DNA of 64,000 nucleotides from Candidatus Providencia siddallii (GTDB lineage: Bacteria > Pseudomonadota > Gammaproteobacteria > Enterobacterales > Enterobacteriaceae): the NCBI RefSeq assembly GCF_964026685.1, contig NZ_OZ034688.1, positions 186,001 through 250,000 on the forward strand, in the 5' to 3' direction. Below the pieces are notes generated by a model. That model was given only the letters and a program-made list of their open reading frames with translations. It made no database searches and was not told where the DNA came from. This document shows positions 4,604 to 63,125 of this stretch, in pieces. The translations under genes were made by a program, and so were the position numbers. Within the stretch, counting starts at the first letter, position 1. Every line of letters begins with the position of its first letter.

Positions 4604-6415
4604 ATGACTATAAAAAACAAAGATCAAAAAAAATATATTTTTGATAAAAAAATACAAAAAAAAGATCAGAAGTATTTTGATGAATTATTAATTTTAGAAT
4701 TAAATAACGAATTTGGAAAAAATATTTTTTCATTTCAAACAACTTGTATTGGTATGATGGTTATTTGGATAACTCGCGAACAATTGTTAAAAGTAGTAAA
4801 TTTTTTAAAGAAAATATCAAAACCATATATTATGTTATTTGATTTGCATGCAGTAGATGAACGTCAAAGGATTTATCGTCAAAACATTTCTGAGTCAGAT
4901 TTTACTGTGTTTTATCATTTTATTTCTATTGATCGTAATCATGATCTTATGTTAAAAGTTGCATTAAAGGAAAAAGATTTAATTATTCCATCAATAGTTT
5001 CTATATTTCCAAATTCAAATTGGTATGAACGTGAAGTTTGGGATATGTTTGGTATAGTTTTTAAAGGTCATCCAAATCTTCGTCGTTTATTAATGTCAAC
5101 GAATTGGAAAGGTCACCCGATGCGTAAAGATTACCCTGCTAGAGCTACTGAATTTAAATTATTTCATTTAACTAAACAAAAACAAGAATTTGAAATGGAA
5201 TCTTTAATTTTTAAGCCAGAAGAATGAGGTATGTTACGTGGTAATAAAAATGAAGATTTTATGTTTTTAAATTTAGGTCCGAATCATCCAAGTTCTCATG
5301 GTGCATTTAGAATTATTTTACAATTGGATGGAGAAGAAATTATTGATTGTGTACCTGATATTGGTTACCACCATCGTGGCGCTGAAAAAATGGCTGAACG
5401 TCAATCATGGCATAGTTATATTCCATATACAGATCGCATTGAATATTTAGGTGGTTGTATAAATGAAATGCCTTATATTTTAGCTGTAGAAAAATTAGCT
5501 GGAATAGAAGTACCAGATCGCGTAAAAGTTATTCGTATTATGCTATCAGAATTATTTCGCATAAATAGCCATCTTTTATATATTAGTACTTACATACAGG
5601 ATATAGGAGCTATGACTCCAGTTTTTTTTGCATTTACAGATAGACAAAAAGTATATGATGTTATTGAAGCTATTACTGGTTTTCGTATGCATCCAGCTTG
5701 GTTTCGCATTGGTGGTGTAGCTAATGATTTGCCACGTGGTTGGGATAAATTATTACGTAATTTATTAAAATGGTTACCAAAGAGACTAAAATTTTATATT
5801 TTTTCAGCATTAAAAAATTCTATTCTTAAAGGACGTTCAATTGGTGTTGCATCGTATAATAAGACAGAAGCTTTTGAATGGGGTGTAACTGGCGCTGGTT
5901 TACGTGCAACAGGAGTTGATTTTGATGTACGTAAATGGCGTCCATATTCTGGTTATGAAAATTTTGAGTTTGATATTCCAATTGCTAACAATGGTGATTG
6001 TTATGATAGACTTATGATTAAAGTTGAAGAAATATGGCAAAGTATTAGAATACTTGAACAATGTTTAAATAATATGCCAGAAGGTTTATATAAAGCAGAA
6101 CATCCATTAACTACTCCTCCTTTAAAAGAAAAAGTTTTGCAAGACATAGATACGTTAATAAATCATTTTTTACAGGTATCTTGGGGGCCAATTATTCCTG
6201 TTAATGAATCTTTTCAAATGATTGAAGCAACAAAAGGAATTAATAGTTATTACCTTATAAGCGATGGTAATACTATGAGTTATAGAACTCGTATTCGAAC
6301 TCCAAGTTATGCTCATTTACAGCAGATACCATCTGTTATAAAAGGAAGTCTTATTTCTGATTTAATTATTTATCTTGGTAGTATTGATTTTGTAATGTCG
6401 GATGTGGATCGTTAA
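4604..6415 (+). CDS. nuoC: NADH:quinone oxidoreductase fused subunit CD (one UGA read as Trp)
   Basis: Fused peripheral-arm subunit (30-kDa plus 49-kDa homologues) that helps form the quinone site; the fusion is the enterobacterial arrangement. With UGA as stop it would appear as separate nuoC (207 residues) and nuoD (394 residues) genes. The UGA at 5225-5227 (residue 208) lies in KPEE-W-GM, exactly the sequence E. coli has at the C-D junction, so this is one 603-residue protein. The D part shows [13 protein letters not shown], the HHRGAEK block and the C-terminal [15 protein letters not shown]. It ends in TAA two bases before nuoE. Confidence 0.96.
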
Positions 6416-6417
6416 AT

Positions 6418-6954
6418 ATGTGTGATAAAAATTGTAAAAAAAATAAATGTAATATGTTTAATAAATATAAGTTATTAATAAAAAATTTTAATTTAACATA
6501 TGAAGAATATAAAAAAATTGAAAATGAAAAAAAATGTTATGAGAATCCACAATCAGCATTAATATCAGCATTGACACTTTTGCAAAAAAATCGTGGATGA
6601 ATTGATGATAATACCATTTCAAGTGTTGCAAAAATTTTTGATGTTTCAATATCAGATGTAGAATGTTTAGCGACGTTTTATAGTCAAATTTTTCGTAAAG
6701 CAGTTGGAAAACATATTATTAGATATTGTGATAGCATTGTTTGTTTTATTACTGGATATAAAGATATAGAAAATGAAATAATAAGACAATTAAATATAAG
6801 ACCTGGTCAAACAACATTTGATAATCGTTTTACACTTTTACCTGTATGTTGTTTAGGGAATTGTAATAAAGCTCCTACTATAATGATTGATGATAATGTT
6901 TATAATAATTTAAATTTTAAAGATATTAAAAAATTATTGGAAGATTATGATTAA
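6418..6954 (+). CDS. nuoE: NADH:quinone oxidoreductase subunit E (one UGA read as Trp)
   Basis: NADH-dehydrogenase module subunit binding the [2Fe-2S] cluster N1a. A UGA at 6598-6600 (residue 61) follows NRG, where the family has RGW; translating through it gives a 178-residue protein (E. coli 166). The cluster ligands lie downstream of the UGA: Cys104 and Cys109 (CxxxxC in RYCDSIVC) and Cys145 and Cys149 (CLGNC). A 60-residue product ending at the UGA would have none of them. The N-terminus is Lys/Asn-rich and Cys-containing ([11 protein letters not shown]). The stop TAA overlaps the nuoF start by 8 bases. Confidence 0.95.
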
Positions 6955-8308: not shown

Positions 8309-11020
8309 ATGGTTTTAATATATATAGATAATAAAGAATATAGAGTTAGTGAAAATGATAATTTATTACAAGCTTGTTTGTCATTAGGATTAGATATCCC
8401 ATATTTTTGTTGGCATCCAGTTTTAGGAAGTTTTGGTTCTTGTAGACAGTGTGCTGTTAAACAATATAAAAATATTGATGATATTAGTGGTAATATAGTA
8501 ATGTCTTGTATGACACCAGTGATTGAAGGTATTCGTATATCTATTAGTGATGAAGAAACAAAAAATTTTCGTAAATGTATTATTGAATGTTTAATGACTA
8601 ATCATCCACATGATTGTCCAATTTGCGAAGAAGCTGGTAATTGTCATTTACAAGATATGACTGTGATGACAGGACATTATATTCGTAAATATCGTTTTAG
8701 TAAACGTACGCATATCAATCAAGATTTAGGTCCATTTATAAAACATGAAATGAATCGGTGTATTTCTTGTTATCGTTGTATTAATTATTATAAAAATTAT
8801 GCAGATGGAGTAGATTTAGGTGTTTTTGGTTCTCATAATAATATTTATTTTGGTCGTGCAAAAGAGGGTTCATTAGAAAGTGAATTTTCAGGTAATTTAG
8901 TTGAAATATGTCCAACTGGAGTTTTTACAGATAAAACATATTCTGAATTTTATAATCGTAAATGGGATATGCAATTTGCACCAAGTATTTGTCATCATTG
9001 TAGTATTGGTTGTAATATTATTCTAGGAGAGCGTTACGGTAAAATTGGCAGAGTAGAAAATCGTTATAATGGTTCTATAAATCATTATTTTCTTTGTGAT
9101 CGAGGTAGATTTGGTTATGGTTATACAAATCGTGAAGATCGTCCTAATCAAATTTTGTTACGACAAAATGGAATTGAATATATTATTTCTTCTACAAAAG
9201 CAATTCAAAATTGCATTGAGATTATTAATAATGCAAAAAGAGTAATTGGTATAGGTTCTTCACGTGCAAGTATTGAAAGTAATTATGTGCTTCGTAAATT
9301 AGTTGGTTCTGAGAATTTTTTTTCAGATTTTTCAGATGGGGAACATAGTAGATTACAATTAATATTAAATATTTTAAAAAATGGAGGTATTTATACACCA
9401 ACACTTCGTGAGATAGAAAAATATGATATGATATTAGTTTTAGGAGAGGATTTAACTCAAACTAGTCCTAGAATGGCTTTATCTATACGTCAAGCTATTA
9501 AAAATAAAACCATAAAACAAAATATATTTAATTGGCAAACTGAAGCAATTAAAAATATTTATCAAAATAATAAAAATATATTGATTATTACTAATACAGA
9601 CGAAACATCTTTAAAAGATATCGCTACTTTTAATTATTACGCACCAGCAGATGATCAAGCTCGTTTTGCTTTTGCTATAGCAAATATAATAAATAATGAG
9701 TTACCAAATGTTAGCGATTTATCAGAAGATTTAAAAAGAAATGTAAAAAATATAGCACAACTTTTTGTTAAATCTAGAAATCCATTAATTATTAGCGGTA
9801 CTCATAGCGCTAGTGAATCATTGATAAAATCGGCTGCAAATATTGCTTTTTCTTTAAGGTTAAAAGGGATTAATGTTGGATTATCTTATTTAGTTTCTAA
9901 TGCGAATAGTATTGGTTTAGCTATGATGAATGCTAAATCTATTGATAATGCATTTTTTTCTATTGAATCAAATGAAGTTGATGTTGCAATAGTTATTGAA
10001 AACGATCTTTATTATAATAATAGTATTAATGTTGTTGATAATGCTATTCAAAAATTAAATAAATTGATTGTATTAGATCACCAAAAAACTATTTTTATGG
10101 ATAAAGCAACTTTAGCTTTTCCATCGGCAAGTTTTGTAGAAAGTAATGGTACTTTAATAAATCAAGAAGGTCGTGCTCAACGTTTTTTTAAAGTATTTGA
10201 ACCAGATTTTTATAATAAAAAAATTGTTATAAAGGAAACATGAAAATGGTTATCACTATTTCAAAATAAATTAGATAAAAAAAATTTACAAGATATTACT
10301 TTTGATAATGTAGTAACTGATTGTGTTTTAAATATGCCTCAATTTAAAAAAATTATTGATGTATCTCCAAAGTCGTCATTTAATATTCACGGTCAAAAAT
10401 TAGCTAGAGAACCTCATAGATATAGTGGACGTACAGCAATATTAGCAAATAAATCTGTTCATGAACCATCTCAACCTAAAGATCTGGATTCTCCTTTTGT
10501 GTTCTCAATGGAAGGTAATAATAATATGATATCAAAACGTCAACAAATTGCATTTGCATGGTCACCAGGTTGAAATTCACCTCAATCTTGGAATAAATTT
10601 CAAGAAAAAATTTTTGGTCATTTATTGTTTGGAGATCCAGGTGTACGTTTATTTGATTCTATAAAAAGAAATATAAGTTTTTTTACTGAAATTCCAGACA
10701 GATATAAACCAAAAAAATCACAATGGCTTATTGTGCCATATTATCATTTATTTGGTTCTGATGAAATATCGCAACGTTCTGAAAAAATTAAAAATTGTAT
10801 ACCAAAACCTTATATTGTTTTAAATAAAAAAGATGCTATAAAATATAATTTATGTAATAGTTCTAAATTTAAATTTATATATAATAAACAAACATTTATT
10901 TTAAATGTATGTTTAAGTAAATATTTATCTAATGGGCAAATTGGATTACCTTTAGGTATGCATGGTCTTCCAACTTCAATGGCTGGAAATTTTGTTGAAA
11001 ATTTATATTGGAAAATATAA
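8309..11020 (+). CDS. nuoG: NADH:quinone oxidoreductase subunit G (two UGA read as Trp)
   Basis: Largest peripheral subunit, carrying several Fe-S clusters. Two in-frame UGAs, at 10241-10243 (residue 645) and 10571-10573 (residue 755), sit in VIKET-W-KWL and WSPG-W-NSPQ, where E. coli NuoG has Trp. Translated through, it is 903 residues (E. coli 908). The N-terminal ferredoxin-like cysteines (FCWHP, SCRQC, SCMTP), the [14 protein letters not shown] block, CISCYRC and the extra-cluster CHHCSIGC motif are all present. The molybdopterin-like C-terminal domain is more diverged. Its TAA shares a base with the nuoH ATG. Confidence 0.95.
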
Positions 11021-13096: not shown

Positions 13097-13414
13097 ATGG
13101 TACCTATTCAACATGGATTAATTTTATCATCAATTTTATTTGTAATTGGATTAAATTGTTTAGTTATTCGTCGTAATTTTCTTTTTATGTTATTAGGTCT
13201 TGAAATTATTATAAATTCAATTGCATTAGCATTTGTTGTTGTTGGTAATTTTTGGCAACAATCTGATGGTCAAATTATGTATATATTAATAGTTTCATTA
13301 GGTGCTGCTGAATCAAGTGTAGGATTAGCTTTATTATTACGATTTTATCGTCGTTATCAAAGTTTAAATGTTGATAATCTTAGCGAGATGCATGAATGAG
13401 TTTATTATATTTAA
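13097..13414 (+). CDS. nuoK: NADH:quinone oxidoreductase subunit K
   Basis: Small membrane-arm subunit with three helices and the two conserved membrane glutamates (the one in GLEIIINS and the one in [11 protein letters not shown]). The E. coli-like protein would end at SEMHE (residue 100), where a UGA lies at 13397-13399 overlapping the nuoL ATG. If UGA is Trp throughout, translation adds WVYYI and ends at TAA 13412-13414, overlapping nuoL by 19 bases. I give the code-4 end; the classical end would be 13399. Confidence 0.93.
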
Positions 13415-15255: not shown

Positions 15256-16764
15256 ATGATATTGGTAAATTTATTATTAATTTGTTTTTTTGGAGGGTTA
15301 TTAAGTTGGCAAGTTGGAATATTTAATCGTAATATATCACGTTGGGTTTCAATTATTTCAACTATATTGTTATTTATTTTTTCAATTCATTTGTTATATA
15401 AAAATAATTTTATTTTATTTAATTTAAATAAAACTCAAAAATGGAAAGAAATTTTTTTTCTAAATTGGATTCCTTCTTTAGGAATAAATATTCATTTTGC
15501 TGTTGATGGATTGTCAATATTAATGATTATTTTAACTTCTATTGCTTCTATTTTTGCTGTATTGAGTTCATGGAATGAAAATAAAAAAAATCAAGGATTT
15601 TATTATTTTAATTTAATGTGGATAACTACAGGTATAATTGGTGTTTTTATATCAGTTGATTTATTTTTATTCTTTTTTTTCTGGGAAATGATGTTAATAC
15701 CAATGTATTTTATTATTATAAATTTTAAAAATAAAGATTTAAAAGATAAAAAAAATATTAATGTAGCAATGAAGTTTTTTATTTATACACAAATGAGCGG
15801 TTTTATAATGTTATTATCTATAGTTGGACTTGTATTAGCTCATTTTAAAACAAGTGGTATATTAACATTTAATTATAATGATTTACTTAATACTAAAATG
15901 TCTAGTACATTAAGTTTTATTTTAATGTTAGGGTTTTTTATTGCTTTTGCGGTAAAAATGCCATTAATTCCTTTTCATGGATGGATGCCAGATATTCAGG
16001 AATATTCTCCAAAATCAGGTTCTTTTGATATATTAGGTATTATGTTAAAAACAGGTGCTTATGGTATGTTTCGTTTTATTTTACCATTATTTCCAAAATC
16101 ATCTGATTTATTTGCTCCGATCGTAATGGTGATTGGGACGATTAGTATTTTTTATGGTGCAATATTAGCATTTAGACAAAATAATATTAAACGTTTAATA
16201 GCATATGGTAATTTATCTCATATGGGTTTTATAGTTATAGCGATTTTTTCTAATTCTATTTTAGCATATCAAGGAGCAGTTATTCAAATGATAGCTAATA
16301 GTTTATCAGGAATAGGATTAATTATAATTAGTGGTTTGCTTTATGATCGAATTAAAACTAGTGATATTCAAATGATGGGTGGGCTGTGAAAACATATTAA
16401 ATGGTTACCTGTACTAACATTATTTTTTTCTGTTGCAAATTTTGGAATACCAGGAACAGCGAATTTTATCGGTGAATTTATGATTTTGTTTGGTAATTTT
16501 AAACAATTTACTTTTTTAACATGTATTATTGCTTTTGGAATTATTTTTACTTCTATTTATTCATTATGTATGATGCAACAAATATATTATGGTGTTTCAA
16601 AATTAAAAATTGAAGTTAAAAAATTATCAATTCGTGAATTTAGTATGCTTTTAATTTTAGCAATTTTAATATTTATAATTGGTTTTTATGTACAACCAAT
16701 TATAGATATATCAATTAGTTCATTAAAAACATTATATAATCTACATTCTTTTTTGTTGAATTAG
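15256..16764 (+). CDS. nuoM: NADH:quinone oxidoreductase subunit M (one UGA read as Trp)
   Basis: Antiporter-like proton-pumping subunit. A UGA at 16387-16389 (residue 378) stands in QMMGGL-W-KHIKWLP, where E. coli has MMGGLW; reading through gives 502 residues (E. coli 509). The glutamate of FFWEMMLIPMYF, the lysine in FAVKMPLIPFHGWMPD and the conserved histidine motifs are all present. A product ending at the UGA would lose about a quarter of the protein, including the last membrane helices. nuoN follows 14 bases after the TAA. Confidence 0.95.
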
Positions 16765-18362: not shown

Positions 18363-19694
18363 ATGATAGATAAATACAATAAATATTTTTTTTTAAAGTT
18401 AATAGATGAAATAATATTATATATATCAATGTTAAAATTAAAAAAAAATGAATTTATTTCTATAGAAAAATATTTTAATAAAAACCTTTTTTTTCTTGGA
18501 TTAAAATGGTTGTCAAATCAAATTTTTTATCCACAATTTTATTGGTATAATAGAAATGGAAAAGAGGAAAATAGTGCTATAGGTATGTTAAAATCATTTA
18601 ATTCTATTAATGATGCCGAATTTTTTTTATTGCAACATTTAAAATATCCAAATTTACGGATTTGGGGTTTAAATGGTTGGAATTCAATTGGCAATGATAT
18701 ATCAAATAAAGTTAAACAAAAATCAACATTTTATTTTCTTCCGCGTTTAGAAATTTTTCGTTTTAATTTAAATATTACGTTTATTTTGAATATAAATGGT
18801 AAAAATGATATTTTAAATACTATTAATTTTTTACAGAAATTAAGATTTTTATCTAATTCAAAATTTGAATTATCAATAAATGTTATTAGTAAAAAATATA
18901 ATCCAAATTATCAAGAATGGTTTAATTTATTAACAAAAGCAATAAAAGAAATAAAAACAGGTAAAATAAAAAAAATTGTTTTAGCTCGAGAAGTAAAAAT
19001 AAATTTATCTAGTACAGTTTCGGTTGTTAAAATTTTGTTTTTTAATAAGAAAAAAAATTATAATTGTTATCATTTTATGATTGCATTTAATAAAAATTTA
19101 GGTTTTATATCATCTACTCCAGAACGTCTTTACTTACGAAAAGGAAAAAAATTATTTTCTGAAGCATTAGCAGGTACAATTGATAATGATATCAATAAAA
19201 ATATTTCAAAAAAACAATCGTATTTTTTAATGAAAAATGAAAAAAGTCAACTTGAAAATTTGATTGTTGCTAATGATATATGTAAACAATTGCAAAATAT
19301 AGTATCTAGTTTGTATGTTTCTAAACCTACAATTATTAAACTTTGTAAAATTCAGCATTTATGTAGGTCAATTAATGCTACGTTAATAAAGTCTTTAGAT
19401 AGCATTTGTTTATTACGATTACAACCAACTGCAGCAGTTTGTGGTTTTCCTAGAAAAAATTCTCGTGTTTTTTTATTAAGAAATGAACCTTTTGATCGTA
19501 ATTGGTATGCAGGAACCGGTGGATTTATCAGTTTAAATAAAAGTGAATTTGCCGTTTCTTTGCGTTGTGCCCAAATAAAAAAAACACAAATATTTTTATA
19601 TTCAGGAGCTGGAATATTGGATAATTCAGATCCTAATGAAGAATGAAAAGAAATTGAAAAAAAAATTTTTACATTAAAATCATTATTTGAATAA
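18363..19694 (+). CDS. menF: Isochorismate synthase, menaquinone-specific (one UGA read as Trp)
   Basis: Converts chorismate to isochorismate, the first step towards menaquinone. A UGA at 19644-19646 (residue 428) sits in DPNEE-W-KEIEKK, where E. coli has EQEWQEI; the full product is 443 residues (E. coli 431). The conserved catalytic C-terminal half is present: KIVLAREV, the FISSTPERLY block, SEALAGTI, LQPTAAVCGFPR, EPFDRNWYAGTGGF and LYSGAGI. The N-terminal half is weakly conserved, as is usual in the family. It is the first gene of a menFDBCE cluster, 123 bp after nuoN. Confidence 0.93.
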
Positions 19695-19766: not shown

Positions 19767-21440
19767 ATGTCTAGTTATTCTTTTAATATTAGTTGGGCTG
19801 AAGTAATAATAGAATCACTTGTTCGTCATGAAATGAAATATATTTGCATAGCTCCAGGATCACGTTCTACGCCTTTAATTATAGCAGCTGCAAAAAATAA
19901 AAAATTGATATGTTATACTCATTTTGATGAAAGAGGTTTTGGATTTTTTGCTTTAGGTATTGCTAAAGCAAAAAAAAAACCAGTTGGTATTATTGTAACA
20001 TCTGGTACTGCAGTTGCTAATTTGTATCCTTCATTGATTGAAGCAAGTATGACTGGAGAAAAAATTATTTTTATTACTGCTGATAGACCTCCTGAATTAA
20101 TTGGTTGTGGAGCAAATCAATCAATTAAACAAAGTAATATATTTTCATCTTATCCAATGCAAACACTAATGTTACCAAGACCAACAGAAGAAATATCTGC
20201 TAAATGGTTAGTTTCATCTATTGATGATTGTATGAATAGATTAAATTATGGAGTTTTTCATATTAATTGTCCGTTTGCTGAACCTTTATATGGTGAAATA
20301 AAAGAACATGATAGTTGAAAAAAATCATTAAATAATTGGTGGGATTCGAAATGTTTATGGTTAAAAGAATCATATATAAACAAAATGTATTTTGTTGAAG
20401 ATTGGTATTTTTGGAGACAAAAAAAAGGTATTTTGGTTATAGGAAAAATTGATGTAAAAGATAGCAAATATATTATTTATTGGGGAAAAAAATTAGGTTG
20501 GCCTATAATTGGTGATGTTTTATCGCAAATAGGACAACCTTATCCTTGTGCTGATTTATGGTTAAATCACCCGTTAATACAAAATATGTTTAATGAAGTA
20601 GAGTTAGTGATTCAATTTGGTTCTAATTTAACAGGAAAATATTTGTTGAATTGGTTATCAAATTGTAATCCAAAAGAATATTGGATTGTAGATTTAATGC
20701 CTCAACGATTAAATTTTGCAAATCATAGAGGTCGTAAATTTACTTGTTCTATAAAAAGTTGGTTAGATAACAATAAAGCATGTTTTAATTACTTTTGGTG
20801 TGAAAAATTATTTAAAATTGTACAAAATACTAAAAAATATGTACATAATCAATTAAATGAAAAATTATCTGAAGCTGCTATTGCGTATCAGTTACCTAAA
20901 TTATTGCCACAATCAGGTCAATTATTTATTGGTAATAGTTTAATTCTTCGTTTAATTAATGCTTTTGCTCAATTACCAATTTCTTATCCTGTATATAGTA
21001 ATAGCGGTGTAAAAGGTATTGATGGTCTTATATCAACTATGGCTGGTATTCAAATGGCAACAAAAAAACCAACATTAGGTATTATAGGTGATTTATCTGC
21101 TTTATATGATCTTAACAGTCTTATTTTATTGCGTAAACCTTTTGCTCCAATTGTTTTGATTATTATTAATAATAATGGTGGACAAATTTTTTCTATGTTA
21201 CCAACACCAAAAGATTTTAAAAAAAAATTTTTTTGTATTCCACAGAATATTAATTTTAAATATGCAGCTAAAATGTTTAATTTAGAATATTATATACCAA
21301 ATACTTGGTTAGAATTAAAATCAAAAATAGATCATTTTTGGTTTAATAAATCTCATACTTTGTTAGTAGAATTGATAGTTAATGATGATGAAGGGGTTAG
21401 AGTATTAAAACAATTAATGAAAGAAGTAGTTTTACTATAA
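19767..21440 (+). CDS. menD: SEPHCHC synthase MenD (one UGA read as Trp)
   Basis: Thiamine-diphosphate enzyme joining isochorismate and 2-oxoglutarate in menaquinone synthesis. A UGA at 20316-20318 (residue 184) follows KEHDS; reading on gives 557 residues (E. coli 556). Both ThDP-enzyme halves are complete: the N-terminal SRSTPLI and [17 protein letters not shown] blocks with the ThDP-activating glutamate, and the C-terminal [12 protein letters not shown]...NNNGGQIF cofactor motif. In E. coli menH follows; here the next 193 bp are empty and menB comes next. Confidence 0.94.
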
Positions 21441-22509: not shown

Positions 22510-23475
22510 TGCATGCTAAAATTTACTTATTTAAATTATTTATTGTGAAAAATAGTATTTTTAATAAAATGAAGATTCGTAATGGTTTATTAATTTGTTT
22601 AAAAGATAAACAAAATGAAGGTTGAAGGTGAAATTTCTCCTTTGTTTGGATTTAGTAGAGAAACATTAGATCAAGTTATAGATGAAAGTATTATTAAATT
22701 AACTGAATGGTTAAAAACAGGATTAATTAATGATAGTTGCTTTCCATCTGTAGCTTTTGGTTGTAGTTGTGCATTAGCTGAATTAAATGGAGAACTACCT
22801 AAACAAACAAATTATTCAAAAGCATTATTATATACTTTTGATGACTTAAAAAAATTAATTTTAAATGTTAATAAAATAAAAAACAAAAAGATTGTTAAAA
22901 TTAAAATTAATAATAATAAAATACTTAAAACTAGTAATCTTATAAATTTATTGTTTGAGACGATACCAAAATTGAACTTACGAATTGATGCTAATCGAAG
23001 TTTGACTTTTAATGAAGCTAATACATTTATTAATAATATAAATGTTCAGTATAGAGGATATATTGATTTTATTGAGGAACCATGTAAAACATATGAAGAG
23101 TCTATACAATTTGCAAAAAATACAGGAATTAATATTGCTTTAGATGAAAGTATACGTGAAGTTAATTTTAAATTAAAATCTGATTTTGGTGTTACTACAA
23201 TTATAATAAAACCGACATTAATAGGTAGTTTATCATACTGTCGTGATTTAATTAAAAAAATACATCTTTTAGGATTAAATGCTGTGATTAGTTCATCATT
23301 TGAAAGTAGTTTTGGATTAACACAATTATCAAGAATTGCTTATTGGTTAACACCTAATACAATACCAGGATTGGATACAATTATGTATAATGATTCGCAA
23401 TTAATCAGAGTATGGCCAGGATGTTTTTTACCTGTAAAACAATTAAATGATTTAAAAATTATATGAAAAAGTTAA
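22509..23475 (+). CDS. menC: o-Succinylbenzoate synthase, apparent 1-base frameshift near the N-terminus
   Basis: Enolase-superfamily dehydratase of menaquinone synthesis. Reading from the ATG at 22509 (overlapping the menB stop) gives about 38 MenC-like residues ending NEG, then UGA=Trp at 22623. The conserved continuation GEISPLFGFS is in the next frame, shifted by one extra A at 22626. Downstream all catalytic residues are present: KIKI, RIDANR, EEPCK, ALDES, IIIKPTL. A start at ATG 22615 would give an uninterrupted product lacking about 37 N-terminal residues. The end also has a UGA (23464-23466), so code 4 extends to TAA at 23475, overlapping menE. It may be a young pseudogene, a shortened enzyme or a sequence error. 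Confidence 0.75.
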
Positions 23476-24901: not shown

Positions 24902-26377
24902 TTAATGATTTTTTGTTTGAGAATTTATAAAATTCATATTTTTATATTTAACAAAATAACTTTTTTTTATAATTTTATATCCTATCCAAATTATTAAAAA
25001 TATAAAGATACTAATATAATTTGTTATCAATTTTAACCAATTAATTTTATTTTCTAAAAATATTTGATAACTTTGACTAAATATAATTATAAAACATAAT
25101 ATAAATGCAAATATAGGACCTATTGGAAAAAATTTTGAATGATATGGTAAATCGTTAATATTTTTTCCATGAAAAATATATCCTTTACGAAATCTATAAT
25201 GACTAATTGCAATACCTAGCCAAGCAATAAATCCTGTCATACCAGAAGTATTTAATAACCATATATAAATTGTTTTATTATTAAACATTGAACTTAAAAA
25301 ACAAATAGATGCAATAAATGTTGTAGCTAATAAAGAATTAAGTGGAATACCGTTTTTAGAAAGATTACTAAAAATTTTATGAGCTTTTTTATCTATGGAT
25401 AAAGCATATAATATACGACTAGAAGCATACATACCAGAATTACCAGCAGATAAAATTGCAATTAAAATAATTATATTTATTATTGATGCGGCATATAATA
25501 AACCAGAATTTTTAAATACTAAAGTAAAAGGACTTATACTTATATTTTTAATATTATTGTTTAATAAATTTAAATCATTATAAGGGATAATAAGACTAAT
25601 AATTAAAATAGTGAGAATATAAAATAATAAAATACGCCAAAAAACTTTTTTTATTGCATTTGGAATATTTTTACTTGGATTTTCAGATTCTCCTGCTGTT
25701 ATTCCAATAAGTTCAGTTCCTTGAAAAGAAAAACTTACAATCATTAAAACATTAATAATTGAAAAAAATCCATTAGTAAATTGCACATTGTTAATTTGTA
25801 ATTTATTAAATTCTTGATTTATTATAATGTTTAAAATTATTGTAAAACCAACGATAATAAAAATTATTATTGTTGTGATTTTAATCAATGAAAACCAGTA
25901 CTCTATTTCACCAAAATATTTTACAGATAGAAAATTAATTAAAAAAATTATTGTTAAAAAAATAATACTCCAAACCCAACATGGACTTTTTGGAAACCAA
26001 AAACTCATTATTAATTGTGCAGAAACTAAATCAACTGCAATAGTAACAGCTCAGTTATACCAATAATTTCAACTTAAAGCAAATCCAAAACCTTCATCTA
26101 CATATTTAGAACCATATGTTGCAAATGATCCAGATACAGGCATATATGCAGCTAATTCGCCTAAACTTGTCATCAAGAAATAAACCATTAATCCAACAAT
26201 AGAATAAGAAAATAGTGTACCGTATGGCCCAGCTTGTGTTAATATCGCTCCTGATGCAACAAATAGTCCAGTTCCTATTGATCCACCAATAGCAATCATA
26301 GTAATATGTCGTTGTTTTAAATTACGACGTAATTTAATATTATTTTTTTGTAAATCATTAATTATTTTTTTTGACAT
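24902..26377 (-). CDS. lysP: Lysine-specific permease (two UGA read as Trp)
   Basis: Amino-acid/proton symporter of the APC superfamily, for lysine uptake. Two UGAs fall at residues 103 and 109 in FALS-W-NYWYN-W-AVTIAVDL, where E. coli LysP has Trp at both sites. Read through, the protein has 491 residues (E. coli 489) with twelve hydrophobic helices. Typical blocks are IGGSIGTGLFVASG, SFQGTELIGITAGES, AGNSGMYASSR and NTSGMTGFIAWLGIAISH. With UGA as stop it would split into a 102-residue and a 368-residue piece. It is retained as a stand-alone gene, suggesting import of lysine from the host (inference). Confidence 0.95.
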
Positions 26378-26642: not shown

Positions 26643-27242
26643 TTATATATTATTTATAATACGTCTTCCTGTATAGTATTTTTTGTTTCAATATGAATTA
26701 GTTATTTTTGAAATAATAACACCATTACTTGTTGATGCATGAATAAATTTTTCATCTCCTATGTAAATGCCTACATGTTTTAATGTATTATTTATTTTAA
26801 ATAATACTATATCTCCAATTTTTAAGCTTTTTCTTTTAACACTTTTTCCAGAAAATTCTTGTTCTGAAGTAGTTCGTGGTAGTTGTATTCCAAATTGTTC
26901 AAAAAAAGTTTGTTGTACAAAACTTGAACAATCAATTCCTTTTTTTGTTGTCCCGCCAAGTTTATATATAACATTTTTCCAATTATTATATTGTTTCATT
27001 ATTTTTGATTTAGCATTAATAAGTTGAATTAATTGTTCAAAATCATCTTGAGATATTTGTGTTATAGAGTTGTTATATATGTTATTATTTATATAATTTT
27101 TAGAAAAATTTTCTGTATTTTTTAATTTTTTTAAATCTTTTAAATTAGAACAAGAAATTAAAGTTAATGCTATAATTATTAAAATTATAATATTTAAACA
27201 AAAATTTTTATTTTTTTTATTAATTAACATTATATTATACAT
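26643..27242 (-). CDS. mepS: Murein DD-endopeptidase MepS/Spr lipoprotein (one UGA read as Trp)
   Basis: NlpC/P60 cysteine peptidase that cuts peptide cross-links so that the cell wall can expand. It has an N-terminal hydrophobic signal with lipobox LISC (Cys31). The catalytic set is Cys105 (GIDCSSFVQ), His156 (LKHVGIYIG) and His168 (FIHAST). A UGA at 26688-26690 (residue 185) stands in TNSY-W-NKKYY, where E. coli has PYWKKRY; the reading then ends at TAA 26643-26645, giving 199 residues (E. coli 188). Stopping at the UGA would lose the last helix. Flanked by 265 and 294 bp of empty AT-rich DNA. Confidence 0.93.
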
Positions 27243-29690: not shown

Positions 29691-31727
29691 TTACCAAATA
29701 AAAACTCGTTCTTCAGGTTTTAAATAAAGTTTGTTATTTTCATTTACATCAAATGCTATATACCATTCTTCAATGTTACGAATAACACCATTAGTGCGAA
29801 ATTTGTATGGACTATGAGGATCTGTTATAATTCTATTAAGTTCTGATTCTTTATTAGATAATTCACGCCATATTCTAGCCCATGAAATAAAAAAATATTG
29901 TAATCCAATTTTATAATTATTTTTTTGAGATTTTTTTAAATAATTTTTTTTTGTGTAATGTTTATATGAATTTAAAGCTATATTTAATCCACCTAAATCT
30001 CCAATGTTTTCTCCAAGTGTTAAATTTCCATTTATTTTTTTACCATTTACTTCAAAAGTATTGTATTGGTTTATTAATTTTTTTGTTTTTTCTTTAAAAT
30101 TATTTTTAGCTGTATCGCTCCACCAATTTCGTAATTGACCTGTACTGTCATATAAACTTCCTTGATCATCAAAAGCATGTCCCATTTCATGTGCAATAAC
30201 TGCTCCAATTGAACCATAATTATATGCAGGATCAACATTACAATCGAAAAATGGAGCCTGTAATATTGCTGCAGGGAATACTATTTCATTTTGAACTGGA
30301 TTAAAATATGCATTTACAGTTTGAGGTGTCATTTCCCATTCCCATTTACGATTTGGTTGTCCTAATTTACTTAGTGTATTTTTATTATTCCATTTTAAAA
30401 TTTGTTTGTAATTATTTATAAGTGTTTTTGAATTAAGATTTATATCACTAAAATCATTCCATTTATCTGGATAACCAATTTTTATTGAAAAATTATCAAG
30501 TTTTTTTAATGCTTCTTGTTGTGTAAATGAATCCATCCAATTGTTGTTTTTTAATCGTTCACTAAATGTTTTTCGTATATTGTTAACTAATTCTTGAATT
30601 TTTTCTTTTGAATTTTGATTAAAATATTTTTTGACATATATTTTTCCTAGAGCTTCACCTTGAAGTGAATTAATTATTTGTAAAGCTTTTTGTTTTCTTG
30701 TTCTTTGTTTTTTTATACCATAAAGTTTTTTTGAAAAAAAATTAAAATGTATATCAAAAAATTCTTTGTTTAAAAAACCTGCATATCTATTTATATGTTT
30801 TAAAATAAGATAATCTTTAATAGTTGAAATTTGTGTGTTAAGAAATATTTTTATTGTATTTTGTACAGAGCTATCTGTTTCTACAATAATTTTTTTAAGT
30901 TTTTCTTCATTTAATTTATTTTTTTTTATAAAAAAATCCCAATTAAATCCATTTGTAAAATTTTTCATTTCCTGTAATGACATAGCATTATAATTTTTAA
31001 TGGTATCACGTTGTTCTTCAGGTGTTCAATGTATTTTAGCTATAGATTTTTCTAATTCAAGTATTTTTTTTGCTCTATTATTAACATTATTTTCACCTAA
31101 TTTTTTTAAAATAATTGTTATATAATTATAATAATCTTTACGAATTTTTTTCATTTGATCTGAATTTTCAAGATAATAATTACGATTAGGTAGTTCTAAA
31201 TTTCCTTGACTTATATATAAAATATATTCTTTTGGATTTTTAGCATCTAAATCTACCCAATAATTAATTATTGAACTATAGTATGGTGATGTCATTAAAT
31301 TACTTATTTCATTGTGGTTTTTTGCTTGTTTAATTGTTTTTAAATCATTTTTTATAGGAAGAATTCCAATTTTTTCAATAATATCTTTATTTATGTAGCT
31401 TAAATAGAGATTACGAATATTTCGTTGGTTATGGTCAAGTTTGCTTTCATTAATTATTTGAAGTTCATTAATTATATGTTGTAATTGTTTTTCTAAAATT
31501 AAATATAAATCAATAAAAGAATTAATTCGTGGCATCCCATTTGGAATTTTTGCGTTATTTATCCAATTATTATTAACGTAATTATAAAAATCATCACCGG
31601 GTTGAATTGAATCTGATAATATAATTTTTTGATTTTTATTATAAAATATTTCTTTTGCTATAACTTGATTTGTAAAAGAAGAAAATGTTGATATCCCAAT
31701 GAATAAAATTATCATATTGTTATGCAC
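29691..31727 (-). CDS. pepO: M13-family (PepO/neprilysin-like) zinc metalloendopeptidase (one UGA read as Trp)
   Basis: Large zinc endopeptidase that cuts small peptides. The N-terminal hydrophobic segment (about residues 4-25) ending near VIAKE suggests export to the periplasm or a signal anchor. A UGA at residue 234 (IH-W-TPEEQRD) interrupts an otherwise full-length 678-residue protein. The zinc site is complete: HEMGH (about 513-517), the downstream ENIGD glutamate (about 573) and the NAYFNP substrate-binding motif. E. coli has no close equivalent at this site; in E. coli sohB is followed by topA-cysB-acnA-ribA. It may be an ancestral enterobacterial gene retained here, or an acquisition; composition matches its neighbours. 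Confidence 0.88.
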
Positions 31728-37584: not shown

Positions 37585-39051
37585 TTAATTAATTAAATTT
37601 TCTTTATTTAAATTTTTTAAAAGATGACGTATTTTACTACGTGCTTTTGAACTAACAACAAAATTTAACCATGATGCATTTGGTTTTTTTTTTTGAGATG
37701 TAATGATTTTAATAGTTTGCCCGCTTATTAATGATTTTGATAATGGGTAAAATTTACAATCAACATGAGCTGCTATACATTTATGACCTATATCTGTATG
37801 AACAGCATAAGCAAAATCAACAGGTGTTGCTCCTATTGGTAACTCAATAATATGTCCTTTTGGTGTAAAAACATAAATTTCATTAGGAAATAAATCTAAT
37901 TTTACATTTTTGATAAATTCAAATGAATTAACAGTATTTTGTTGTAATTGTTTTAAATTTCGTATCCATTTCCATGTTCTTAATTGTATATGATAATAAT
38001 TATTGTTTTGTTTTTTATATTTCCAATGTATTGCTATTCCAATTTTAGTAATTTGATTCATTTCTTTTGTACGAATATAAATTTTTATAGGTATTCCTTG
38101 AGGTCCAATTAAAGATGTATGCAGTGATTGATATCCATTTGCTTTAGGAATTGCAATATAATCTTTAATTTTTCATGGATGTGGTTTATATAAACTGTGA
38201 ATTTTACCTAAAACTCTATAACAAGTATCTATATCTTGAACAATTATAATAAACACATAAATATTCATAATTGAATAAAAATGTTGTTTTTTTTGTTGGA
38301 TTTTTTGATATATCGAATATAAAGTTTTTTCGTGTAAGTTAATATAATAATTAAAATTCATTTTTGTTAAACATTTATTAATTTCAAAAAATATTTTTTT
38401 TGTTAAAATTTTATGATTATTATTAGCTGATTCAATTATTTTTTTTATAATGCGATATTTTTTTGGATATAATGTTTTAAATCCAAAATTTTCTAATTTA
38501 TTTTTTATATAGTTAATTCCGAGTTTATTAGCAAGTGGGCTGTAAATTTCTAAAGTTTCACGTGCAATACGTATTTTTTTATCATATCTTAATGAATTAA
38601 TCGTTTGCATATTATGCAAACGATCTGCTAGTTTTATTAGAATAACTCTAGTATCTTTTATCATAGCAATAATAATTTTTCGTAAATTTTCTACTTGCTC
38701 TTCTTTTTCATTGCGAAAATTAAGTTTATCTAATTTTGATACTCCTTCTACAAGATCAGCAACAGTTTTCCCGACTAATTGTTTTATATCGTCAAATGTT
38801 GTTTGTGTGTCTTCAATTGTATCATGTAATAATGCTGCCATTAATATTTCGTGTTCTAAATGCATTTTAGCTAAAATGCAAGCAACTGCTATTGGATGTG
38901 TTATGTAAGATTCTCCGCTGAATCTGGTTTGTCCTTCATGTGCTTTTCGTGCTATTAAATATGCTTTTTTTAATAATTCAATATGTTCATTTGTAAGATA
39001 TTCTTGAATAATTAAATTAAGTTTTTCAAATAAATGCAATTCAGACCTCAC
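37585..39051 (-). CDS. spoT: (p)ppGpp hydrolase/synthetase SpoT, C-terminally truncated (one UGA read as Trp)
   Basis: Controls the alarmone ppGpp. Present are the HD hydrolase domain (HD at residues 76-77, LLHDTIEDT), the pseudo-/synthetase domain (DYIAIPKANGYQSLHT) and the TGS domain (about 391-455, EIYVFTPKGHIIELP). A UGA at residue 293 (KPHP-W-KIKDY) is read as Trp. The protein ends in TAA at residue 488, just after KIRHLLKNLN; E. coli SpoT has 702 residues. The helical, zinc-finger and ACT/RRM regulatory region is missing. It may keep ppGpp hydrolysis while losing sensory control (inference). Follows rpoZ and gmk as in E. coli. Confidence 0.9.
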
Positions 39052-40005: not shown

Positions 40006-40192
40006 AATATTTTTAACTAATTGTTGTAATAAAAATGTTAGTATATTGTATGAATATTAGTTAAATTTTTTAGAAAATTAATTTTTTATTAAAATAATAT
40101 TTATTTTTGTAGAAAAATATGTATTTAAAAAAATAATTGTTAATTATTAATAGAAATGTATATTTTATTTTTTATAAAATAGTTTTAATTCG

Positions 40193-40266
40193 CAGGGGCG
40201 GAGAGTTTCGAACTCCCAACACCCGGTTTTGGAGACCGGTGCTCTACCATATTGAACTACGCCCCT
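40193..40266 (-). tRNA. trpT: tRNA-Trp (anticodon CCA)
   Basis: Read on the minus strand this is a full cloverleaf: acceptor AGGGGCG/CGCCCCT with discriminator G, anticodon stem CCGGT/ACCGG and loop CUCCAAA with anticodon CCA. It is nearly identical to E. coli tRNA-Trp, with one extra base in the D-loop (AATATGGTA). D-stem position 24 is G, so it lacks the classical Hirsh UGA-suppressor change, and the anticodon stem has the normal five pairs. The 3' CCA is not encoded (CGA follows). The asp-trp pair follows rrnC in E. coli; no rRNA is next to it here. Confidence 0.95.
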
Positions 40267-40270
40267 ATAG

Positions 40271-40347
40271 TGGCGGAACGGACGGGATTTGAACCCGCGA
40301 CCCTCTGCGTGACAGGCAGATATTCTTACCAACTGAACTACCGCTCC
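40271..40347 (-). tRNA. aspT: tRNA-Asp (anticodon GTC)
   Basis: Cloverleaf on the minus strand: acceptor GGAGCGG with its complement, anticodon loop CUGUCAC with anticodon GUC, T-loop TTCAAAT, and an encoded CCA at 40271-40273. Closely matches E. coli tRNA-Asp. Only four bases separate it from tRNA-Trp, so the two are surely co-transcribed. Confidence 0.96.
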
Positions 40348-41448: not shown

Positions 41449-42006
41449 TTATCCTTTTCGATATATTTCACCAGTTTTTGAATTTCTAATTTCAGATTGT
41501 TTTGTTGATCCTCCAATTAATCCGTCGATAACATATATATTTTTAAAAAGTTTAATAACTTCATTTTTTGTTTTACATGGTTTTTGTCCATTTAAATTAG
41601 CACTTGTTGATATAATAGGTTTTCCATATTTGTTGCATAAAGTTTTAATAGGTTCATAATTAATAATTCTTATAGCTAATGTGTCAAATTTACCTGTTAA
41701 CCATTTTGGTGTTGTTATTTTTGCTTGAATAGTTCATGTTATATGTCCAGGCCATGTAGAAAACATAATTTTTTTTTGTTTTTCAGTTAAAGAATTATCA
41801 TTTATATATTTTTTAAAATTTTGATAATTGTTAGAAATAAGTATAAAACCTTTTTCTATTGAACGCTGTTTTAGTTTTAGTAAAGTATTTACTGCAATTT
41901 CACAATCTGGATCACAACCTAAACCAAATACTGATTCAGTTGGATATGCAATAATTTTTTTTTTATTTAGATATTTAATCGCATTTTCTATGTATTTATT
42001 TTTCAT
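41449..42006 (-). CDS. tsaC: L-threonylcarbamoyladenylate synthase TsaC (one UGA read as Trp)
   Basis: Makes threonylcarbamoyl-AMP for the t6A modification of tRNAs reading ANN codons. The 185 residues (E. coli 190) are complete only if the UGA at 41734-41736 (residue 91, WPGHIT-W-TIQ) is read through. Family motifs are IAYPTESVFGLGCDPD, LKLKQRSIEKGFIL, PKWLTG and STSANL. Ends GEIYRKG as in the E. coli protein, then TAA six bases before aroE. In E. coli topA-like yrdD, smg and dprA lie upstream; none is present here. Confidence 0.94.
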
Positions 42007-42859: not shown

Positions 42860-43807
42860 GTGTTTAAACAGTTAAAAATTATTTTTGCAGGAACAACAGA
42901 TTTTGCAGCTAAACATTTGTTAACATTAATTAAAAATAATTATCAAATAGTTGGTGTTATTACTACTTGTGATAAACCATCAGGTAGAGGTAAAAAAATA
43001 AAAAAAAATCCTGTTAAAATTCTTTCTGAAAAATATTTCATATCTTTTTCTCAACCGATTAATTTTAAAAATATAGAAATTCATCAATGGATTAAATATA
43101 AAAAAGTTGATTTATTAATTGTGGTTGCATATGGATTAATTTTACCACAATCTATATTAGATATACCTAAGTTAGGATGTATAAATGTTCATGCTTCTTT
43201 GTTACCTCGTTGGAGAGGACCAGCACCAATTCAATATTCTATTCATTCTGGAGACGATAAAACTGGTATAACTATTATAAAAATGGATGTTGGTATAGAT
43301 ACTGGTGATATACTTTATAAATCAATTATACCTATAAAGAAAAATGATACTAGTGCAACGTTATGTGATAAATTATCCAAAATAGGTTCGATTTCATTAA
43401 TAAAAGTTATTAAATTAATTTTAAATAATAAATGTAATTATGAAAAACAAAATAATAATTTTGCAAGTTATACTAAAAAAATTTTAAAAAAAGAAGCAAA
43501 AATAAATTGGAATGAAAGTGCTATTCAAATTGAACGGTATGTTCGTGCATTTAATCCATGGCCTATAAGTTATTTTTTATTAGAAAAACAATTAATAAAA
43601 GTATGAAAAGTTGAAGTAATTTCAGAATCGTATTCCAAAATACCAGGAACAATTGTTAGTGTAGATAAAAAAGGAATATATATTGCTACTGGTAATAATA
43701 CTTTAAATTTAATTCAATTACAGTTACCAGGTAAAAAATCGGTTGATATACGAAATATAATTAATTATTATAAAAAATTTTTTATACCTAATCAAATTTT
43801 AAAATAA
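42860..43807 (+). CDS. fmt: Methionyl-tRNA formyltransferase (one UGA read as Trp)
   Basis: Adds a formyl group to initiator Met-tRNA. The start is GTG at 42860 in the right frame (FKQLKIIFAGTTDFAAKHL). A UGA at 43604-43606 (residue 249) stands in LIKV-W-KVEVI, where E. coli has KVWKASV. Read through, it has 315 residues, exactly the E. coli length. The catalytic region GCINVHASLLPRWRGPAPIQ and MDVGIDTGD are intact; the C-terminal tRNA-binding OB domain lies after the UGA. In E. coli rsmB follows; here it is gone and trkA comes next. Confidence 0.95.
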
Positions 43808-47519: not shown

Positions 47520-47909
47520 TCAAACTCGTCGTCTTTTAGGTGGACGACAACCATTATGTGGGATAGGGGTTACATCAGTAATATTAGTGATACGAAACCC
47601 AGCTGTATTAAGTGCTCTAATTGTTGATTCACGACCAGGCCCAGGTCCATTAACCATAACTTCTAAATTTTTTATACCATATTCTTTTACTGATTCAGCA
47701 CAACGTTCTGCAGCTACTTGAGCTGCAAATGGCGTTGATTTTCTAGAACCACGAAATCCTGAAGCAGCAGAAGAAGCCCAAGTTAGTACATTACCACTAC
47801 GATCTGTAATAGTTACTATAGTGTTATTAAAAGAAGCATGGATATGAGCTATGCCATCTGAAAGTTGTTTTTTTGTACGTTTTCGTGTGCGCAATACTGC
47901 TTTTGCCAT
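47520..47909 (-). CDS. rpsK: 30S ribosomal protein S11, ending in tandem UGA UGA
   Basis: Platform protein of the 30S subunit. The 129 residues equal E. coli S11 and end with the conserved [10 protein letters not shown] (E. coli GCRPPKKRRV). The next two codons are UGA UGA (47520-47522 and 47517-47519), with no UAA or UAG until 47397-47399. If UGA were always Trp, S11 would gain 41 extra residues, five of them encoded by UGA, overlapping rpsD. I annotate the conserved end. This gene is the main hint that UGA may still terminate in some context; a sequence error is also possible. Confidence 0.88.
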
Positions 47910-57118: not shown

Positions 57119-57421
57119 TTATTCTGAGTTATTAAAGAAGTCCAAATTATACCCTTCTTTTATACGTATATAAGCTTTTTTCCAATCGTTACGATAACCA
57201 ATATGTTTTCCGTGACGTTTGCTTTTACCTTTTATTAATAATGTATTAATACTTTTAACTTTAATTTCGAATAGTTTTTGTATAGATTTTTTTATTTCAT
57301 TTTTGGTAGCATCTTTAATAACTTTAATAACAATTGTGTTATTTTTTTTTATTAACGAAGATGTTTTTTCAGATAAATGAGGTGTTTTTAATATTTTGAA
57401 GAGTCGTTCTTTATTTATCAT
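57119..57421 (-). CDS. rplW: 50S ribosomal protein L23
   Basis: Exit-port protein that docks trigger factor and SRP. 100 residues, as in E. coli. N-terminus [20 protein letters not shown], then [29 protein letters not shown] in pieces. The ATG overlaps the end of rplD (sequence ATGATAA holds both the rplW start and the rplD UGA-UAA). Ends in TAA. Confidence 0.96.
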
Positions 57422-58023
57422 GATAACATTTCCTCAATTTTTTTGATAGCATCTATCGTTAAGATTATTTTATTAAAAGTTATAAGATTAATTGGATTAA
57501 TTTTATCCGAGCTACATACGTCAACATTATGTAAATTTCTTGAAGCTAAAAACAAATTTTTATTTAATTTAGCGGTTACTATCAAAACATTTTTAAAATT
57601 CATATCGTTAAGTTTTTTCATTAAAACTTTTGTTTTATGAGTTTTTAAAGTAAAATCATCAAAAATAATTATGCGATTTTTACGTACTAATTCTGAAAGA
57701 ATACTTTTTAATGCAGCACGGTACATTTTTTTGTTGATTTTTTGTTTATATTTTTTTGGTTTTGCAGCAAAAGTAACACCACCAGATCTTCATATTGGAC
57801 TATTTATTGATCCTGCACGTGCTCGTCCTGTACCTTTTTGACGCCAAGGTTTTTTCCCTGATCCAGAAACTTCCGCACGAGTTTTTTGAGAGCGTGTACC
57901 TTGACGAGCACCAGCTGTGTACGCAGTAATTACTTGGTGAATCAGCGATTCGTTAAAGGCGTATTCAAAAGTTGCTTTCGATAAAATTGTTGTTTTGTTA
58001 GTATCTCTTGTTAACAATTCCAT
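57415..58023 (-). CDS. rplD: 50S ribosomal protein L4 (UGA read as Trp inside, and at the end)
   Basis: 50S assembly protein lining the exit tunnel; in E. coli also the repressor of the S10 operon. A UGA at 57787-57789 (residue 78) lies in [16 protein letters not shown], an invariant Trp of the family, so an uninterrupted L4 requires code 4. The conserved C-terminus EEMLS is followed by UGA at 57418-57420 and at once by UAA at 57415-57417. Code 4 therefore adds a single Trp (202 residues; E. coli 201). Of all the UGA codons here, the internal one is among the strongest evidence for reassignment, since L4 is essential. Confidence 0.96.
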
Positions 58024-62327: not shown

Positions 62328-63125
62328 AAGTTTATTTGTGTTAAAAATTTTTCCATTTATGTAAGAATTAATTTTTCCATATGAGTTTTCTAGTAATAAT
62401 TCACCATAGTTATTTATTCCTCTTTCTATTCCTGAATTAATACTATTATTAGTTAAAATGTTAATATTTTTATTAAAAAATTTATCTAAAATAATCCATC
62501 TATTAATAAAAGGTTTTAATCCATTTTTTTCAAAAATAATTATTGATTTTATTATTTCCTGTGTAATATTTGCAATAAGTTCGTTTCTTTCTATATTTTT
62601 TATTTTTTCTTTTAAATAAGTCCAATTATTATTAGTAAAATTTTTATTTTTGATATTATTTTTATTTTTTTCAATATTTATTCCAATTCCAATAATTGTA
62701 TGTAATGAATTATCATTTTTTTTTATTGATTCAATCAAAATACCAGCGAGTTTTTTATTATTTATATATAAATCATTTGGCCATTTTAATTTTATTTTTT
62801 TATTTATTTTTTTGTTTAATATTTCAGCTATAACTACTCCAATTGTTAAGCTTAGTCCAATTGTTGTTATAGTATTTTTTAAAAAAAATTTTCAATATAT
62901 AGAAAAATAAATATTACCAAATGGAGAAAACCATTTATGTCCTCTTCTACCTCTTCCTTCGCTTTGAGTTTCAGCTAAACAAATATCTCCAGATTTTAGT
63001 TTTGATAAATTATCTAACATATATTGATTTGTTGAATTAACAGAATTAAGAATAATGATATTTATATTATTTATATATTTCTGTATTTTTTGTTTATTTA
63101 ATAAATTATTTTGTTGAAGTAACAT
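62322..63125 (-). CDS. birA: Biotin-protein ligase lacking the DNA-binding domain (one UGA read as Trp)
   Basis: Attaches biotin to the biotin carboxyl carrier protein. A UGA at 62892-62894 (residue 78, YFSIY-W-KFF) aligns with a Trp in E. coli BirA (MFWRL). Reading through gives 267 residues, against 321 in E. coli. The ligase core is intact: [22 protein letters not shown] (57-70), KWPNDL (114-119), KKLAGIL. The protein begins at the point equivalent to E. coli residue ~60, so the N-terminal winged-helix repressor domain is absent. Only 90 bp separate it from murB, so there is no room for the domain. It should be a ligase without repressor function (inference). Confidence 0.93.

Follow-up and report, generated by a model that had tools for sequence, protein, structure and literature searches.

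The tRNA-Trp locus and the tRNA complement

The minus strand of the window carries a tRNA-Trp gene alongside a tRNA-Asp(GUC) gene, a pairing that matches the aspT-trpT arrangement of Escherichia coli (Table 1). The window is a 64,000-nucleotide stretch (contig positions 186001-250000) of the single-contig, 755,758-base genome of a Candidatus Providencia siddallii strain, referred to here as PSAC; the second P. siddallii genome, which we take to be that of PSOF and call the sister strain, is the one further genome of the genus in the comparisons. According to Table 1 of PMC11218487, PSAC is a symbiont of the blood-feeding leech Haementeria acuecueyetzin with a genome of 756 kbp and 33 tRNAs, and PSOF has 844 kbp and also 33 tRNAs.

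ARAGORN places the tRNA-Trp gene at 40192-40266, so that the gene reported in an earlier note on this DNA, made from the sequence alone, is present and its limits (40193-40266) are one base too narrow. The anticodon is CCA, and the gene is the sole tRNA-Trp not just in the window, as had been noted, but in the genome: a model search of the complete PSAC sequence (E ≤ 0.001) finds 33 tRNAs, among which ARAGORN identifies this one tRNA-Trp and no UCA anticodon. The suggestion that a second tRNA-Trp(UCA) lies elsewhere is therefore ruled out for this assembly. The sister strain also has 33 tRNAs; ARAGORN gives a call for 32 of them, of which one is tRNA-Trp (CCA) and none has a UCA anticodon. Ten matches to the tRNA-Sec model in the PSAC genome all fall below the cut-off, and selenocysteine decoding of UGA was rejected on this ground.

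In an alignment of the tRNA-Trp genes of PSAC, the sister strain and E. coli (trpT), numbered by our own placement of positions 9, 24 and 27-43, the anticodon loop CUCCAAA is unchanged relative to trpT and the anticodon stem has all five pairs (CCGGU/ACCGG) with C27-G43 kept. The stem is thus not of the shortened 4-bp type, and neither of the Hirsh-type suppressor changes (G24A or A9C) is present, G24 and A9 being as in trpT; the earlier description of loop, stem and G24 was correct throughout. At the Hirsh pair 11-24 the sister-strain tRNA-Trp has C11-G24, while PSAC and E. coli have U11-G24. The PSAC gene otherwise differs from trpT by one additional D-loop base and a few further changes. 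That base, previously singled out as the visible oddity of this tRNA, is real by comparison with trpT but is common to the sister strain, and it is therefore probably not the cause of UGA reading.

UGA at tryptophan positions and at gene ends

Alignment of 48 window genes to E. coli K-12 reveals eight in-frame stop codons in PSAC, all of which are TGA and all of which fall on an E. coli tryptophan; there is no in-frame TAA or TAG among these genes, and 120 other E. coli tryptophan positions are TGG. In the sister strain these genes have a single TGA on tryptophan (in menC) and 138 TGG. From this conservation we infer that the residue inserted at the in-frame UGAs is tryptophan. The comparison with the sister strain was extended to 204 kb, comprising the window, four 20-kb stretches and one 60-kb block, and UGA is present at 34 of the 470 positions at which the sister strain has TGG and PSAC has TGG or TGA. 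This final count uses a looser overlap filter (178 alignments kept and 729 dropped, with at least three identical residues required within 6 columns); an earlier, strict overlap filter omitted tamA, and the looser one adds two sites (34 vs 32). At least two UGA-Trp codons are found in each of nuoG, an amino acid permease gene and tamA. There is also one PSAC UGA each in spoT, tamA and an unnamed gene (contig 573647) at a position where the sister strain does not have tryptophan, all three followed by A (UGA-A); the remaining rows of this kind were set aside by eye as antisense, tRNA, start-overlap or run-on stretches. The spoT gene (window 37585-39051) is shortened, with about 488 codons vs about 695 in the sister-strain frame.

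Table 1. Positions of the tRNA genes, in-frame UGA codons and UGA stop codons in the window, with prfB (contig coordinates) added. UGA-N denotes UGA with its following base.
Feature	Position	Strand	Description
Window-edge gene beside ackA, probably pta (gene order only)	64..66	-	UGA-A at Trp
nuoCD	5225..5227	+	UGA-G at conserved Trp (EEWGM)
nuoE	6598..6600	+	UGA-A at conserved Trp
nuoG, first of two	10241..10243	+	UGA-A at conserved Trp
nuoG, second of two	10571..10573	+	UGA-A at conserved Trp
nuoK stop	13397..13399	+	UGA-G, ATGA overlap with nuoL
nuoM	16387..16389	+	UGA-A at conserved Trp
menF	19644..19646	+	UGA-A at conserved Trp
menD	20316..20318	+	UGA-A at conserved Trp
menC	23464..23466	+	UGA-A at Trp near C-terminus; TGG in sister strain
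Amino acid permease	26051..26053	-	UGA-G at Trp; TGG in sister strain
Amino acid permease (same gene)	26069..26071	-	UGA-A at Trp; TGG in sister strain
NlpC/P60-type murein endopeptidase	26688..26690	-	UGA-A at Trp; TGG in sister strain
PepO-like peptidase (match below the model's curated cut-off)	31026..31028	-	UGA-A at Trp; TGG in sister strain
spoT	38173..38175	-	UGA-A where sister strain has Gly
Sole tRNA-Trp	40192..40266	-	Anticodon CCA; 5-bp anticodon stem; A9, G24 and C27-G43 intact; extra D-loop base
tRNA-Asp(GUC)	40271..40347	-	Neighbor of tRNA-Trp; ARAGORN
tsaC	41734..41736	-	UGA-A at W91; same in sister strain
fmt	43604..43606	+	UGA-A at Trp; TGG in sister strain
rpsK stop	47520..47522	-	UGA-U, then a second UGA
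rplD stop	57418..57420	-	UGA-U, then UAA; overlaps rplW start
rplD (ribosomal protein L4)	57790..57792	-	UGA-A at conserved Trp 78 (E. coli numbering)
BirA-type biotin ligase	62892..62894	-	UGA-A at Trp; TGG in sister strain
prfB (RF2)	contig 617459-618559		Frameshift site lost; in-frame UGA-A at W48

UGA also serves as a stop codon. The 48 window genes end in TAA (41), TGA (4) and TAG (3) in PSAC and in TAA (39), TGA (8) and TAG (1) in the sister strain, although one of the four PSAC TGA ends, that of menC, is a near-end tryptophan codon by comparison with the sister strain. In a larger set of 166 gene pairs, which may include a few antisense ORFs, ten PSAC rows end in TGA; three of these were dropped (a run-on in rplC, an antisense ORF, and tsaC with its internal TGA), and the other seven were judged genuine: rpsK, rplD, nuoK, an mtn-like nucleosidase gene, rnhA, gltX and tamA, the last three and the mtn-like gene having been named by eye from their translations. 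A possible eighth stop, a UGA-U at contig 139310 that aligns with the final residue of the sister-strain protein, was left uncounted. If rpsK were read past its UGA UGA it would gain about 40 residues and overlap rpsD. Five of the seven UGA-ended genes have UAA or UAG in the sister strain, a point that counts against the reading proposed below; UGA ends have thus been gained or lost both ways, or in one strain or the other. Ten of the 166 pairs have a TGA end in the sister strain and TAA or TAG in PSAC. The code-4 genome implied by the earlier note is thus only half right: UGA occupies tryptophan positions, but it still ends the seven genes judged genuine, and prfB is kept.

Only two UGA-Trp codons were found in the sister strain, in menC and tsaC. 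In tsaC (window 41449-42006) both P. siddallii strains have UGA-A at W91, a position that in 25 other relatives is Trp (17), Phe (5), Tyr, Gln or Ile (1 each) in an alignment of 27 loci from which three weak second matches were left out; the sister strain must therefore also read UGA at least there. The sister-strain UGA of menC is at W42. With UGA at these places in both strains, some reading of UGA as tryptophan seems to predate the strain split. The PSAC copy of menC (window 22510-22660) has its UGA at the place of W42 followed by one extra, frame-shifting base, as seen by eye, and an ATG at 22615 restarts the remainder of the gene. The interval from menD to menB, which holds menH in E. coli, shows no such gene in PSAC.

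The base following UGA and the termination machinery

The base that follows UGA at tryptophan positions is far from random. At the 34 sites it is A in 30 and G in four and never C or U, compared with A 142, G 88, C 69 and U 137 after UGG in the same 204 kb (Fisher test, 1.4e-10 for A and 1.3e-9 for a pyrimidine). Expressed as a share of all tryptophan codons, UGA accounts for 30/172 before A, 4/92 before G and 0/206 before C or U, with 0/69 before C alone. The first 27 sites already gave A 24 and G 3, vs A in 96 of 308 after UGG (Fisher, 4e-9), and the 60-kb block, fetched after the rule had been seen, added five sites with the original filter, all followed by A, or six with A and one with G using the looser filter. 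In nine cases out of the 34, PSAC has A after the codon and the sister strain has C, G or U. Other synonymous changes from NNG to NNA served as a control and occur at 340/382, 170/198, 154/176 and 256/294 positions before A, C, G and U respectively (a first version gave G-to-A shares of 0.88, 0.88, 0.88 and 0.86); as this control has no next-base effect, the rule is unlikely to reflect an influence of the neighboring base on mutation.

The seven UGA stops are followed by U in five (rpsK, rplD, the mtn-like gene, gltX and tamA), by G in nuoK and by A in rnhA, the last being a counter-example that counts against the rule. U at this +4 position in 5/7 stops vs 0/32 of the UGA-Trp codons then known gives a p value of 3.6e-5, and the UGA stops of the sister strain are not skewed in this way (A 6, U 6, G 1 in 13 rows, tsaC among them). 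Two genes use the codon both ways: rplD has UGA-A as tryptophan and UGA-U as its end, and tamA has UGA-A and UGA-G at tryptophan positions and UGA-U as its end.

A look-up of prfB, as the earlier note had proposed, located the gene, which carries an in-frame UGA-A of its own. It is full length with a score of 470 bits, its SPF and GGQ motifs are intact, and its frame is open apart from this one TGA at the conserved W48, which is TGG in the sister strain. The UGA is at one of five tryptophan codons in the gene and could be of chance origin. Both P. siddallii strains have lost the frameshift motif, which 79 of 80 enteric prfB loci carry. Among the best 80 matches in named genomes, a set that may omit records of the window's own genome, the top match to the PSAC RF2 is from Providencia (73%). 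The PSAC RF2 departs in many places from residues conserved in 95% or more of 81 enteric RF2s; many of these positions differ in the sister-strain RF2 too, and G211K (E. coli numbering), four residues past SPF, is found in PSAC and not in the sister strain.

Several other translation components were considered. RF3 has no match above the cut-off in either genome, and because it is missing from both strains its loss was rejected as the cause of the strain difference; loss of PrmC and loss of MiaB were rejected because both proteins were found in both strains. TrmL also has no match above the cut-off in either strain, but its substrates are tRNA-Leu species and its missing match therefore says little. 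At 16S positions 726, 1054 and 1199-1201 and 23S positions 1093-1095, which we take to be the sites of rRNA UGA suppressors, the PSAC sequences are as in E. coli. The 16S rRNA has U-to-C changes at 1183 and 1189, near helix 34, which run against the AT drift and are absent in the sister strain; C1189 occurs in bacteria with normal termination.

Interpretation and relation to known systems

We think it fairly probable that UGA is part-way through reassignment in this genome, with an unaltered CCA tRNA reading it in competition with RF2 and the next base deciding the outcome. The sole and otherwise ordinary enterobacterial tRNA-Trp would read UGA by near-cognate pairing, with C34 opposite A, and would compete with RF2 at each UGA; followed by A, and sometimes by G, the codon would be read as tryptophan, and followed by U it would act as a stop. 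RF2 would be retained and is probably limiting, with RF3 missing and the ancestral frameshift control of prfB gone, and synthesis of full-length RF2 would require that the UGA-A at codon 48 of prfB be read as tryptophan. The role of the CCA tRNA as the reader, its competition with RF2, a low RF2 level and feedback through prfB are all inferred. Of the options raised in the earlier note, reading by the CCA tRNA once RF2 is weak or absent fits best, with the correction that RF2 is not absent, prfB being present with SPF and GGQ. We suggest more tentatively, as a possibility rather than an expectation, that UGA is in effect read in four letters, with UGA-A and UGA-G as tryptophan and UGA-U as stop, sometimes within one mRNA, and that the RF2 level, acting through the prfB UGA-A as a substitute for the lost frameshift control, tunes the reading of UGA across the cell.

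What is reported for E. coli bears on this in both directions. Excerpts from PMC5289835 cite E. coli tRNA-Trp as prone to misread UGA-A, link +4U to little read-through and improved contact with RF2, and state that in bacteria +4C also weakens termination, above all in UGA-C. The expectation for leaky near-cognate reading, that it be best with A at +4 and nil with U, agrees with the counts, and the permissive UGA-C expected from the same excerpts (PMC5289835) does not appear (0/69). This last count is not predicted by a simple model of weak stop contexts; that UGA-C is never tryptophan speaks instead for a tRNA that favors a 3' purine or for a next-base preference of RF2 itself. The next-base rule alone leaves a weak tRNA and an RF2 of altered context preference unseparated. 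Wild-type tRNAs ordinarily read near-cognate codons with low efficiency, which sits poorly with the genes that need at least two UGAs read (nuoG, the permease gene and tamA), and the loss of RF3 and the D-loop base, being common to the sister strain, leave the difference between the strains unexplained.

An altered RF2 that recognizes UGA only before certain bases (U and perhaps C), leaving the rest to the tRNA by default, is unlikely although it has points in its favor, since it would also account for the absence of UGA-C from tryptophan positions and since the PSAC RF2 departs from the enteric consensus at many positions, including G211K near SPF, which is not shared by the sister strain. 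The sister-strain RF2 differs at many of these places too, however, and we know of no RF2 substitution that gives such next-base selectivity; moreover, an altered RF2 overlaps with the competition between CCA tRNA and RF2 instead of excluding it, and excerpts from PMC5289835 report that RF2 cross-links with the +4 base. Editing of C34 to U, or its modification, in part of the tRNA-Trp pool would provide cognate reading of UGA, and a mixed pool would allow both UGG and UGA to be read. We know of no bacterial case of such C34 editing, and a cognate tRNA should depend less on the next base than is seen here; the strength of the next-base rule makes this explanation less likely, and the preference for A also matches the misreading reported for E. 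coli tRNA-Trp (excerpts from PMC5289835), so that we consider it quite unlikely.

A complete change to code 4, in which UGA is tryptophan everywhere and the leftover UGA ends are harmless short extensions, accords with the gain of only about 1-13 residues expected from read-through in nuoK, rplD, rnhA and the mtn-like gene, and with the ten gene pairs in which a UGA end of the sister strain is UAA or UAG in PSAC. Against it stand the long extension of rpsK into rpsD, the retention of RF2 with its motifs, and the lack of UGA-Trp before C or U, which it does not predict, and we regard it as very unlikely. Assembly errors or pseudogenes are hardly credible as the source of the in-frame UGAs: a few genes do look degraded (spoT is shortened and the menC N-terminus shifted), but the in-frame stops of the 48 aligned genes are without exception TGA and at tryptophan, and errors give no reason for a next-base rule to hold.

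If the four-letter reading holds, PSAC would represent, in a living organism, an ambiguous stage in a change of code that begins in leaky contexts while the tRNA is unmutated. It has long been asked how a codon can acquire a new meaning while the cell survives, and few intermediates are known. The stop codon looks as though it is captured context by context, before a change of anticodon and before loss of RF2, and capture seems to start in contexts in which UGA is known to be misread by wild-type tRNA-Trp. The base after UGA is a directly testable rule. There is also a warning for annotation, in that wholesale use of either code 4 or code 11 for such genomes would be wrong for some genes.

UGA recoding in this symbiont is already in print. 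A 2023 paper by Manzano-Marin, Kvist and Oceguera-Figueroa (evad164) announces in its title an alternative genetic code in 'Ca. Providencia siddallii'; its subject, the symbiont of Haementeria acuecueyetzin, is almost certainly PSAC. The next-base rule, the double use within genes and the prfB UGA were not found in the literature searched, which did not include this key paper.

Among known systems, context-dependent codons that serve as both stop and sense have reportedly been described in ciliates (PMC4967479), and PSAC is similar in that one codon has two meanings set by context; the ciliate case concerns a nuclear code and eukaryotic termination, whereas bacterial RF2 and the next base are involved here. 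The 4-bp-stem tRNA-Trp(CCA) is described in excerpts from PMC13092985 (a paper whose main text does not mention 'Providencia'); PSAC is like Zinderia in that a CCA tRNA appears to read UGA without a UCA tRNA, and is unlike the 4-bp-stem type in having a five-pair stem with A9 and G24 kept. With Hodgkinia, as presented in excerpts from PMC2704378, it shares UGA at conserved tryptophans, a reduced symbiont genome and a single tRNA-Trp. Hodgkinia has lost prfB, has changed its tRNA-Trp to UCA and uses UGA for 48% of its tryptophans, whereas PSAC keeps prfB and the CCA anticodon and has UGA at 34 of the 470 tryptophan codons compared; it thus resembles step 1 of the model in that paper, before RF2 loss, without the tRNA mutation supposed there. 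It also recalls the leaky reading of UGA-A in E. coli, which involves the same type of tRNA and the same favored next base (excerpts from PMC5289835), but what in E. coli is the misreading of a stop codon is in PSAC apparently built into dozens of genes.
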